Notes under the pieces: generated by a model
Told to the model about the DNA's origin: nothing
What the model saw: the letters and a program-made list of their open reading frames with translations, nothing else
Databases searched by the model: none
Assembly: GCF_014930455.1 (NCBI RefSeq)
Contig: NZ_JAAIYO010000001.1
Coordinates: 558,001 to 622,000, forward strand
DNA length: 64,000 nucleotides
Source: Corallococcus soli
GTDB lineage: Bacteria; Myxococcota; Myxococcia; Myxococcales; Myxococcaceae
Reading direction: 5' to 3'
Shown here: positions 34,731-39,183 of the stretch, piece by piece
Numbering within the stretch: the first letter of the stretch is position 1
Layout: the number at the start of each line of letters is the position of its first letter
Made by a program: the position numbers and the translations under genes

Positions 34731-35780
34731 GTGCAGAACCACGACATCATCGTCATTGGCGCCTCCACGGGGGGCGTGGAAGCGCTGACCCTGCTGGCCC
34801 GGCAGCTTCCGAAGGACCTGGCCGCCACCGTGCTGGTGGTGCTGCACGTGTCCTCCCAGCACCGCAGCTACCTGCCGGAGATCCTCACCCGGTCCGGGCC
34901 GCTGCCGGCCCACCACCCGCGCGACGGCGAGTCCCTGGAGCAGGGCCGCATCTACGTGGCGCCCAATGACAGACACCTGCTGGTGGAGTCCGGGCGGGTG
35001 AAGGTGGTGAAGGGCCCCCGGGAGAACGGCCACCGGCCCGCGGTGGATCCGCTGTTCCGCTCGGCCGCGAGCGTCTACGGCCCGCGCGTGGTGGGGGTGG
35101 TGCTCACCGGAGCGCTGGACTGCGGCACCGCGGGGCTCATCGCGGTGAAGAAGGAGGGCGGGCTGGCCGTGGTGCAGGACCCCCGCGACGCCGTCTGTCC
35201 GGACATGCCCCGGAGCGCGCTTGAGTTCGTGGCGGCGGACCACTGTGTCCGCATGGATGAGCTGGCGCCCCTGCTGACGCGGCTGGCGTCCCAGGCCGTG
35301 CCCGCGCGGACGCGCAAGCGTTCGCGGCAGGTGGCGAACGAGGTGAAGGCGATGACGGTGGACATTCCCTCCATGGAGGAGCCTCCCACCCCTTCGGAGT
35401 ACGCGAAGCCCTCCCACTTCTCCTGTCCCGACTGCGGGGGCGTGCTCTTCGAGCTGGATGAGGACGGGCTCCTGCGCTTCCGCTGCCGCACCGGCCACGG
35501 CTACACCGGCGAGGCGCTGTCCGGCAGCCAGCAGCACCAACTGGACGCCGCGCTGTGGGCCGCCCTGCGGGCGCTGGAGGAGAGCGCGTCCCTGTCGCGC
35601 CGCATGGCCGTGCGGGCCCGGGAGCGCAACCACGCCCACTCCGCGGAGCGCTTCGATGAGCGGGCCCGCTCGGCGGAGTTCAACGTGGAGCTGCTGCGCC
35701 GGGCGGTGCTCGGGGGGCCCGCGCCCTTCGCGGCGGCCACCGAAGGCGCGGCGTCGGATGGACCGGAGGAGGCGCTCTAG
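34731..35780 (+). CDS. CheB-type methylesterase with zinc-ribbon-like tail
   Basis: 349 aa, GTG 34731. The N-terminal 185 residues are a CheB methylesterase domain without the usual receiver: IVIGASTGG (catalytic Ser12) and LTGALDCGTAG. A C-terminal domain (about 230-265) has FSCPDCGG and CRTGHGY, a Cys/His pattern that suggests metal binding, followed by a helical tail. It may demethylate chemoreceptors or another substrate. It converges with the histidine kinase gene; the two stops share the palindrome CTAG, so the genes overlap by 4 nt. The CheR partner is encoded close by. Confidence 0.88.
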   Translation: MQNHDIIVIGASTGGVEALTLLARQLPKDLAATVLVVLHVSSQHRSYLPEILTRSGPLPAHHPRDGESLEQGRIYVAPNDRHLLVESGRVKVVKGPRENGHRPAVDPLFRSAASVYGPRVVGVVLTGALDCGTAGLIAVKKEGGLAVVQDPRDAVCPDMPRSALEFVAADHCVRMDELAPLLTRLASQAVPARTRKRSRQVANEVKAMTVDIPSMEEPPTPSEYAKPSHFSCPDCGGVLFELDEDGLLRFRCRTGHGYTGEALSGSQQHQLDAALWAALRALEESASLSRRMAVRARERNHAHSAERFDERARSAEFNVELLRRAVLGGPAPFAAATEGAASDGPEEAL

Positions 35781-37249
35781 CCGCGCGCGGGGCGGCGGCC
35801 CTTGCGGCGCGCGGGGGGCTTGAGCGCCGGGAAGCTGAGCGTGAACACCGCGCCCCCTTCCGGGCGGTTGGCGGCGGTGAGCGTGCCGCCCGCGCGCGTC
35901 ACCACGCCATGGGCCATGGACAGGCCCAGGCCCGTGCCCTTGTCGCCCTTGGTGGTGAAGAAGGCCCGGAAGATGTCGGAGAGGTGCTCCTCCGGGATGC
36001 CGGTGCCTTCGTCCTCCACCGTGAGCCGCACGGCCTTCGCGACCCGGGCCGCCCGCACGCGGATGGTGCCCCCCTGGGGCATGGCGTCGCGCGCGTTGAT
36101 GAGCAGGTTGATGAGCACGTACCGCAGCTCCATGGCCGAGCCCGCCACCAGCGGGAGCTGCTCCGGCAGCACCACGTCCAGGTGCGGCGCCGGAGCCCCC
36201 TTCGGGTGCCGGTGCTCGATGCCGCCCCGCGCGATGTCCACCGCGTCCCGCACGACGTCGAGCAACTGCACCTGCTCCACGTGGGTGTCGGTCTTCTGTC
36301 GGGAGAAGTCCTGGAGGCGGCCCACGCGCGCGCCCGCGTCGGAGACGATGCGCGCCAGCGCGTCCATGTGGTGCTGCCCGCGCTCGGTGAGGGGGATGGC
36401 GTCGCGCTGGAGCATCTCCAGCCTCAAGCGCATGGCGTTGAGCGTGTTGCGCAGGTCGTGCGCGATGCCCGCCGCCAGCTCCCCCAGGGCCCGCAACTGC
36501 GCGCGCTCCATCAGGGTGGCGCGCGCGTGCACCAGCTCCTCCTCGTCGCGGGCCTGGGCGGTGATGTCGCGGGCGAGCACCAGCACCTGCCGCATCGCCG
36601 AGGGGGTGACGGCCTCCGAGCGCACCTCCAGCACCTGTGGGTCGGTCCCTCGCGTCTGCTGGTAGCGCGTGACGTGGGGCCCCATCCCCTGGGCGAGCAC
36701 CGCCTCCGCCTCCGCCGCGGCCACGTCGCGCAGCGAGGCGTACTCCGGGCCCTGGACGCGGCCCTCCGCGTAGCGCCGCCAGGGCCCTCGCGCCCGGCCC
36801 ATGGCGTGCCAGCGGGAGTTGGCCAGCACCACCCCGCCCGAGCGCAGCACCGCCAGGGCGCTGGCGCTGGTCTCCAGCGCCCAGCTCGACAGCTTGAAGG
36901 TGCTGACGTGCAGCGTGGTGCGCTCGTCCAGCTTGCGCACCAGCGTGTCGTGCTTCACCAGCAGCTGCTGGTACTTGCGCAGCAGGCCCGGGTTGTCATT
37001 TATGTCTGGAATGCCATGTTTGCCATGTTTGCCATGTTTGCCATGTTTGCCATGTTTGCCATGTTTGCCATGTTTGCCATGTTTGCCATGTTTGCCATGT
37101 TTGCCGTGTTTGCCATGGATGTCCTGGCTGACTGGGGGCGGGGGGCTTGGGGCCTGGGGCGCGGCCTGCGCCGCGTCGCGTGTCGGAGCCTGGACGGGGG
37201 CCTTCGCCGGGACCCGGGGTGAACGCGGTGAAGGGCGCCGTGGGCTCAT
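35777..37249 (-). CDS. Sensor histidine kinase with an HGK repeat
   Basis: 490 aa from ATG 37249, which overlaps the CheR-PAS stop by 4 nt (ATGA). The N-terminal 40 residues are Pro/Ala/Arg-rich, then 11 tandem HGK triplets (residues 45-77) and HG. A PAS-like region follows (about 100-235), then HisKA (about 250-315, AHDLRNTLN with His264) and the ATPase domain (365-480: LLINARDAM, DEGTGIPE, GTGLGLSMAHGVV). No membrane segment. It likely receives a signal relayed by the CheR-PAS protein. The repeat is encoded by an unusually AT-rich 9-bp array. Confidence 0.92.
   Translation of the reverse strand: MSPRRPSPRSPRVPAKAPVQAPTRDAAQAAPQAPSPPPPVSQDIHGKHGKHGKHGKHGKHGKHGKHGKHGKHGKHGKHGIPDINDNPGLLRKYQQLLVKHDTLVRKLDERTTLHVSTFKLSSWALETSASALAVLRSGGVVLANSRWHAMGRARGPWRRYAEGRVQGPEYASLRDVAAAEAEAVLAQGMGPHVTRYQQTRGTDPQVLEVRSEAVTPSAMRQVLVLARDITAQARDEEELVHARATLMERAQLRALGELAAGIAHDLRNTLNAMRLRLEMLQRDAIPLTERGQHHMDALARIVSDAGARVGRLQDFSRQKTDTHVEQVQLLDVVRDAVDIARGGIEHRHPKGAPAPHLDVVLPEQLPLVAGSAMELRYVLINLLINARDAMPQGGTIRVRAARVAKAVRLTVEDEGTGIPEEHLSDIFRAFFTTKGDKGTGLGLSMAHGVVTRAGGTLTAANRPEGGAVFTLSFPALKPPARRKGRRPARG
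37013..37111. repeat. Tandem 9-bp repeat, 11 copies
   Basis: Ten exact copies of GCCATGTTT (plus strand) and an eleventh GCCGTGTTT, inside the histidine kinase gene. On the coding (minus) strand this reads AAA-CAT-GGC, giving Lys-His-Gly. The unit uses CAT and AAA codons, which are rare in the surrounding GC-rich genes, and there are no frame shifts since the unit is a multiple of 3. Confidence 0.95.
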
Positions 37250-39183
37250 GCCTTCATCCTCGCCTTGAGCAGGCGGTTCTCCTCCAGGAGGGCCGTCGTG
37301 CGCGTGGTGTCCTCGAAGAGGACGATGGAGCCCAGCACGTTCGTGTCGGTGACGAGCGGCGTGGCCACCAGCGTGGCGCTGCCCTTGCCCCCGTGCGGGA
37401 GCTGGTAGGGCACGGCCTCCATGCGCAGGGAGCGGTTCTCCTGGAGGTGCCGGCGCAGCTTCTGGATGATGGGGCGCTTGAGGGCGGGCACGTGCAGGGA
37501 CCACAGCGTCTGTCCCACGGCCTCGCGTTCGGTGAGGCCCAGCAGCCGCTCCGCGGCCAGGTTCCAGGTGGTGATGCGCCCGTCACCCTCCAGCACCAGC
37601 ACCGCCGCGGAGAGGGTGCGGATGATGGTGCGCTGGGTGAAGCCCAGGGAATCCATCTCCAGGGTGCGGTGCGCCAGCTCGCGGTTGGTGGCGTCCAGCT
37701 CCGCGTTGGCGGACTGGAGCTCCTCGTTGGTCGTCTCCAGCTCCTCGTTGGTGGACTGCAGCTCCTCGTTGGTCGTCTGCAGCTCCTCGTTGGCGGACTG
37801 GAGCTCCTCGTTGGTCGTCTCCAGCTCCTCGTTGGAGGCACGCAGCTCCTCGTTGGAGGACTGCATCCGCAGGTTGAGCGACTGCAGCTCCTCCTGCGCG
37901 CCCTGGAGGGCCTTCTCCACGCCGCGCACGTGGGTCAGGTCATGGGAGACGTACATGAGCCCGTGGCGCTCCCCGTCGCGCTCGCGCAGGGCGACGACCT
38001 GGGTTCGCACCGTGAGGGGCTCTCCCCCCGCGCCGTCCAGGTATCCGTCCGCGGACTCGCGCTCCGAGCGGCCGGTGCGCACCCGGTTGCTCTGTTCGAT
38101 GAGCAGGTCCCCGCCCAGGCCGGACAGGCCCAGCGCGGCCAGCTTCTTGCCCAGCACGTCGCCTTCGTTGCGGTTCCACAGCCGCGCCGCCGCGCGGTTC
38201 CAGTGCGTCACCGTGCCGTCGTTGTCCGTCGCGATGATGGGGCAGGGCTGCGAGTCCAGCAGGCTGCGCAGGAAGGGCCGCTCGGGCTCCAGCGCGATGG
38301 GCTCCAGCAGGCGCGGCAGGGACGCCGGCTCCGGGGACAGCCGGTCCTGTGTCGTGGCCGTCACGTCCACCTGCCCGTCCTTGCGGTACACGCGCCGCGA
38401 CAGGTCCACGGGCCGGAAGAGCCGGGCCGCGAAGGGGATGAGCTCCGAGCGGCCCAGCACCATCAGGCCGTTGCGGCGCAGGGCGAACTGGAAGCGCGCC
38501 AGCACCCGCTTCTGCAGGTCCGAGTCCAGGTAGATGAAGACGTTGCGGCACAGGAGGATGTCGATGCGCGACACGGGCGCGTCCGACACCAGGTTGTTCA
38601 CCCCGAACACCACCGCGCGGCGGATCTCCTTGCGCACGGTGTAGTTGTTGCCGGTGCGCACGAAGAAGCGGGCCAGCCGCTCCGGGGAGACGTTCTCCAA
38701 CTGCTCCGGGGAATAGATGCCGCGCCGGGCCGTGGCGATGGCGTCCTCGTCCACGTCCGTGCCGAACACCTTCAGCTCCGGGCCGGGATGCCCCGGCCCC
38801 AGCGCCTCCGCGGCGGCGATGGCCAGTGAGTACGCCTCCTCGCCCGTGGCGCAACCCGCGCTCCAGATGCGCAGCTCCTTGTCCGGGCGCTGGCGGATGA
38901 GCTCCCCCATGGACTGCTCCAGCGTCTGCCAGACCTCCCGGTCGCGGAAGAAGCAGGTCAGCTTGATGAGCATGGACGACACGAGCGTGGTGACCTCCGC
39001 CGGGTCGCGCTCCAGCAGAGCCAGGTAGGCCGAGCGGCTGCGGCAGCGCGTGGCCTGCATCCGCCGCTCGATGCGGCGCTGGAGCGTGGCGCGCTTGTAG
39101 TTGCGGAAGTCGAAATTGCGGACCTGCCTCACCCTCTCCAGGATGGCTTCGAGCTCGCTGTCGCGGGGGGGCTTGGACGCCAT
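37246..39183 (-). CDS. CheR methyltransferase-PAS fusion with NEEL coiled coil
   Basis: 645 aa. N-terminal CheR domain (about 15-275: FRDREVWQTLE, WSAGCATGEEAYSLA for SAM, LLCRNVFIYLD), then PAS (about 315-440), then eight heptads of N-E-E-L-x-x-x (about 440-496), then a second PAS (515-640) ending in ENRLLKARMKA. CheR methylates glutamates of chemoreceptors. CheB and CheR domains joined to PAS and kinase are known as large fusion kinases; here CheB, CheR-PAS and the kinase are separate genes. It overlaps the kinase gene by 4 nt. Confidence 0.92.
   Translation of the reverse strand: MASKPPRDSELEAILERVRQVRNFDFRNYKRATLQRRIERRMQATRCRSRSAYLALLERDPAEVTTLVSSMLIKLTCFFRDREVWQTLEQSMGELIRQRPDKELRIWSAGCATGEEAYSLAIAAAEALGPGHPGPELKVFGTDVDEDAIATARRGIYSPEQLENVSPERLARFFVRTGNNYTVRKEIRRAVVFGVNNLVSDAPVSRIDILLCRNVFIYLDSDLQKRVLARFQFALRRNGLMVLGRSELIPFAARLFRPVDLSRRVYRKDGQVDVTATTQDRLSPEPASLPRLLEPIALEPERPFLRSLLDSQPCPIIATDNDGTVTHWNRAAARLWNRNEGDVLGKKLAALGLSGLGGDLLIEQSNRVRTGRSERESADGYLDGAGGEPLTVRTQVVALRERDGERHGLMYVSHDLTHVRGVEKALQGAQEELQSLNLRMQSSNEELRASNEELETTNEELQSANEELQTTNEELQSTNEELETTNEELQSANAELDATNRELAHRTLEMDSLGFTQRTIIRTLSAAVLVLEGDGRITTWNLAAERLLGLTEREAVGQTLWSLHVPALKRPIIQKLRRHLQENRSLRMEAVPYQLPHGGKGSATLVATPLVTDTNVLGSIVLFEDTTRTTALLEENRLLKARMKA
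37697..37864 (-). repeat. 21-bp heptad array coding the NEEL coiled coil
   Basis: Eight consecutive 21-nt units, each holding the sequence AGCTCCTCGTTG (or close) on the plus strand; seven are identical in that core. They encode the heptads of NEEL in the CheR-PAS protein. Confidence 0.9.

Follow-up and report, generated by a model that had tools for sequence, protein, structure and literature searches.

A probable young coding minisatellite in the predicted disordered N-terminal tail of a Corallococcus soli histidine kinase

Introduction

Short repeats are well known in prokaryotic proteins generally (PMC6821194, PMC6868369), and our literature searches listed no paper that we recognised as reporting an array of this type in a kinase from a myxobacterium. 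Among the closest described systems are the coding minisatellites of bacteria (in-frame variable-number tandem repeats, VNTRs), in which a short unit with a length that is a multiple of three is repeated head to tail, in near-identical copies, within a disordered part of a protein. Here, we describe a 9-bp array with these same properties in a histidine kinase gene of the myxobacterium Corallococcus soli, found in a 64,000-nucleotide stretch of DNA (hereafter, the window; contig NZ_JAAIYO010000001.1, positions 558,001 to 622,000, assembly GCF_014930455.1), and we compare it with orthologous genes from the same family and with the other protein classes that it resembles.

Results

Tandem Repeats Finder (TRF) identified a period-9 array with the unit TGCCATGTT in the window (97% matches, score 205; Table 1), of which a first-pass annotation made from the sequence had recognised eleven units (37013–37111). 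Among 50 dinucleotide-shuffled versions of the window, TRF scored at most 83 and period-9 arrays reached at most 3.2 copies, which confirms the array as real and places it far beyond what chance would produce. It occupies residues 45–79 of the encoded protein, and translation reproduced the 12 His and 11 Lys previously counted among these 35 residues. The units are identical except for one CAC in place of CAT and a final triplet ATT where AAA would be expected; codons within the array thus include 11 AAA, 11 CAT and a single CAC, as compared with 0 AAA versus 12 AAG and 1 CAT versus 13 CAC in the remainder of the gene, in line with the earlier remark that AAA and CAT are otherwise rare there. 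The array codons have a GC content of 45%, versus 74% for the rest of the coding sequence. With head-to-tail, near-identical units (11.8 copies) that keep the frame open, as also anticipated, the array has the unit structure of a coding minisatellite. A dispersed repeat family was considered and rejected: a pair of HGK units occurs at one site in the whole C. soli genome, and an 18-base search that allowed two mismatches gave matches in each of the 16 genus genomes; in the 15 apart from C. soli, these were isolated sites (one or two per genome) with two mismatches and no array.

Table 1. Positions in the window of the array, its host gene and the neighbouring genes.
Feature	Position	Strand	Basis
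9-bp tandem array, 11.8 copies, (HGK)11HG	37012..37117	-	TRF, translation
AT-rich codons following the array (IPDINDN), not unit-derived, missing in orthologues	36992..37012	-	Sequence, orthologue comparison
Histidine kinase gene, 490 aa; HisKA 255–318, HATPase_c 372–475	35777..37249	-	Pfam, translation
N-terminal tail, codons 1–88, mostly very low model confidence	36986..37249	-	Model
Helix, residues 87–126, with conserved LLRKY motif	36872..36991	-	Model, alignment
PAS-like fold, residues 131–228	36566..36859	-	Model only; no Pfam PAS match
CheR-PAS-PAS gene upstream of the kinase gene, 645 aa	37246..39183	-	Pfam
CheB methylesterase gene, convergent with the kinase gene	34731..35780	+	Pfam

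The host gene was confirmed as a histidine kinase by HisKA and HATPase_c matches above the Pfam cutoffs, and its H, N and G motifs are conserved across the aligned sequences. In the predicted structure (mean pLDDT 75.6, pTM 0.41, 19 sequences), pLDDT fell below 50 at residues 1–4, 15–33 and 38–86, and the tail was followed in order by the helix, the PAS-like fold, the HisKA helices and the ATPase domain. The closest folds were PAS/LOV histidine kinases, for example 4gcz (E 2.8e-20, TM-score 0.41 over the query) and 8a52; no Pfam PAS match was found in the kinase protein at E 0.001, so the PAS identity of this domain rests on the model. The kinase gene begins at an ATGA that overlaps the cheR-PAS stop codon, an arrangement present in 22 of the 30 loci scanned (one, G026, with GTGA), the eight loci outside this count being a tail-less kinase (G016), six kinases of another genus (g19) and G041, in which the start rule failed. 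Because the tail is modelled with low confidence and the gene start overlaps cheR-PAS, the array is predicted to lie in a disordered, free N-terminal tail that precedes the helix and PAS-like fold; it does not lie between two domains, which corrects the word "linker" in the first-pass annotation. A start codon located past the array, leaving it out of the protein, was judged unlikely, there being no in-frame ATG, GTG or TTG from the array to LLRKY, and is also countered by the start overlap at the majority of loci. The CheR-PAS gene has repeats of its own (window 37684–37893; periods 21 and 42), coding for an NEELQ-type helix between its CheR and PAS parts, and similar repeats occur in several orthologues.

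The search for the kinase covered 96 family genomes, including 16 from the same genus. A tailed kinase was found in 13 of these 16 (one copy, in G021, split across contigs); G016 has a kinase without the tail, and G023 and G024 have only distant kinases. Tail length among the 13 is 88 residues in C. soli, 64 in G019 and 21–29 in the other eleven, as compared with 13–26 residues outside the genus (nine measured, with G041 left out because the start rule failed there). None of the 12 other tailed orthologues in the genus has the HGK repeat. The proposed recent, lineage-specific expansion, against which a copy number shared among orthologues would have counted, thus survives the comparison, because HGK is absent from all 12 and 11 of their tails are short. 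Kinase relatives in other phyla or classes (at least 80 loci among the matches listed) were 25–36% identical.

At the equivalent tail site, two orthologues have different arrays: 15.0 perfect copies of ATAGCTCGG, coding for SSD repeats, in G019, and 4.1 copies of CCGGAGCCG (93% matches), coding for PPE repeats, in G022. Net tail charge is +13 in C. soli versus −12 in G019, with 12 His versus 1. The SSD unit occurs at a single site across the 96 family genomes. A tree built from the kinase with the tail removed pairs G019 with G022 as sisters (100/99) and gives C. soli no firm place. Elsewhere, period-9 arrays of 5.7 and 3.2 copies lie downstream of the kinase gene in two genomes of genus g7 (L033, 3700–3750; L034, 3608–3636).

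The tail-less kinases of G016 (L023) and the six g19 genomes (L035–L040) open, before the conserved part, with a stretch resembling the first 25–31 residues of CheR. For G016, the alignment score of this stretch was 103, versus a shuffled maximum of 38; for the six g19 kinases, scores were 41–52 versus 30–45 for shuffles (weakest for L035, at 49 versus 45). No CheR-PAS gene was found at E 1e-100 in any of these seven genomes. From their sequences, these kinases are apparent in-frame deletion fusions with the start of CheR, with junctions that differ between G016 and g19.

Across 1.66 Mb of the C. soli genome, HGK was the only period-9 array with at least 4 copies and at least 80% matches (15 arrays passed this rule, 14 of them with other periods); a further period-9 array (L203) was far less regular, with 60% matches. 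Two arrays passed in a 0.4-Mb sample of G018, neither of period 9, and SSD was the only period-9 array in a 0.38-Mb sample of G019 (listing threshold 3.5 copies). Under an exact-copy rule (at least 3 identical 9-bp copies in an open reading frame (ORF)), 2 of 1029 sampled ORFs passed in C. soli, 0 of 256 in G018 and 1 of 249 in G019. Proline-rich windows from the three samples included one, among 682, with a nearby exact-copy run, namely the one beside the HGK array.

Discussion

Together, these results suggest that the array is probably a young coding minisatellite, grown by slippage or template switching and tolerated in the N-terminal tail of a soluble histidine kinase of the PAS type, a tail that would be both disordered and dispensable. 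A chance 9-bp duplication in the tail codons would have been the start, slippage or template switching during replication would have enlarged it, and the array could have been retained because its unit preserves the reading frame and almost any sequence is acceptable in the tail; the physical effect would be a longer, charged, floppy tail before the helix that precedes the PAS-like domain. The array itself, its uniqueness, its absence from orthologues and the presence of a different array at the same site elsewhere are direct observations, from which we infer slippage, near-neutrality and any influence on kinase output. Growth of chance duplications by slippage, in a tail tolerant of nearly any sequence, is consistent with the near-perfect copies, the frame-keeping unit, the uniqueness of each unit and the different arrays of the two sister species. 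This reading is further supported by the 11 of 13 tailed orthologues that are short and lack the array, by the finding of three consecutive HGK units in no phylum genome searched other than C. soli, by the intact HisKA and ATPase motifs, by the tail-less kinases and by the low-confidence modelling of the tail. Two points run counter to this account: unit growth does not explain the AT-rich codons that follow the array, and the clustering of arrays at the tail site suggests more than plain tolerance.

This clustering bears on the reading of the site as a mutational hotspot or selected tuning knob, at which 9-bp arrays recur and kinase output is adjusted through the length or charge of the tail. 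Under the exact-copy rule, 2 of the 12 non-focal tailed orthologues in the genus passed, compared with 1 of the 1532 other sampled ORFs that remain once the two focal arrays are set aside (Fisher p 1.7e-4, or 0.015 when G019 alone is counted), but the numbers are small, G022 was noticed before being counted, and the ORFs were picked mechanically, include wrong-strand frames (in G019, an antisense frame) and are a general sample as opposed to matched disordered tails with orthologues. The HGK, SSD and PPE units are unrelated to each other, as recurrence would have it, and the repeated origin of arrays at this position is a hint of a mutational hotspot or of selection acting on the tail; against this, the HGK and SSD units show no folding signal. 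Hairpin-driven expansion was considered because both units hold a 4-bp palindrome (CATG and AGCT), and was rejected because, as single strands, the arrays do not fold more stably than shuffled sequences (z −1.2 and +0.6 for the two HGK strands, and +3.7, that is, worse, for the G019 array). On balance, we regard a hotspot or tuning knob as unlikely. In its fuller form, unrelated in-frame 9-bp arrays would arise time and again at the start of the kinase gene, every lineage would extend a disordered tail with a charge of its own, and tail length or charge would be a setting of kinase output that can evolve, the cause being local and either mutational or selective; this seems quite improbable.

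His-rich runs can bind metals, and with so many His and Lys in so few residues the array could be a metal- or anion-binding module feeding the kinase. The first-pass annotation had likewise suggested metal binding or a basic spacer, a function that is not supported at this site: the 12 other tailed orthologues lack HGK, the G019 tail is oppositely charged and nearly free of His, and other relatives have kinases without any tail. The opposite chemistries of the HGK and SSD sequences argue against a conserved metal-binding role, and a dedicated module is very unlikely; given the chemically opposite repeat at this place in a related species, the HGK run looks more like a tolerated or tunable spacer. 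Insertion of foreign AT-rich DNA, later expanded, would accommodate the low GC both in the array and in the codons after it, but three consecutive HGK units were found in only 1 of 195 phylum genomes searched, C. soli itself, and 24 bases of the array matched no viral contig searched (both queries being made of array bases); we therefore consider this origin decidedly unlikely. Tandem repeats are often misassembled (PMC6868369), and the assembly comprises 68 contigs, yet the C. soli array spans just 106 bp, inside a 1.8-Mb contig and in frame in a conserved gene, making an artefact of copy number or presence extremely improbable. The SSD array sits on a 3.9-kb contig, and its copy number is less sure than that of HGK and may be misassembled.

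A young, tolerated minisatellite thus remains our preferred reading, and the locus would then be a clear case of de novo minisatellite formation in a genus of 70% GC, with units of unusual composition and with related species having arrays of opposite chemistry at the same orthologous position. The contrast between HGK and SSD separates a tolerated tail from a needed peptide and cautions against inferring function from runs rich in His. Should further genomes show the same recurrence, these kinases would provide a natural series on how disordered tails affect soluble kinases.

Comparison with known systems

Unlike in bacterial in-frame VNTRs, copy-number differences here are known between species only (one genome per species was compared), and other species have a different unit at the site. 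With soluble PAS–HisKA–HATPase sensor kinases (4gcz, 8a52), the C. soli kinase shares the HisKA and ATPase domains and, in its model, the PAS-like fold, but it differs in its long repeat tail before the PAS-like fold and in having no Pfam PAS match.

Collagen-like Gly-X-Y repeats likewise have Gly at every third residue, but the array has 11 triplets and no Pro, and its Pfam Collagen score (26.5 bits) is below the gathering cutoff (27.2), so it was not assigned to that domain. The His-Xaa-Ser repeat proteins (HxsA4, NF038313) also have a long run of His-Gly-X tripeptides. A search with the HGK peptide matched 8 of the 96 genomes: C. soli, three genomes of genus g4 with HxsA4-like proteins (G009, G010 and G012) and, more weakly, G028, G047, G052 and G065. 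The three g4 loci (L169, L167 and L168, respectively) encode small proteins ending in (SHG)n, with roughly twelve His-Gly-Ser units; NCBIfam identifies L167, the one scanned, as HxsA4 (E 4.2e-29). The C. soli array does not belong to this family, as X is Ser in HxsA4 and Lys in the array, and the HxsA4 repeat forms the C-terminal tail of a small protein. The (HGS)n repeats, an array that is maintained, are also written in mixed synonymous codons, as compared with nearly none in the HGK array, and this contrast, along with the acidic SSD array, suggests that HGK chemistry is not the selected property.
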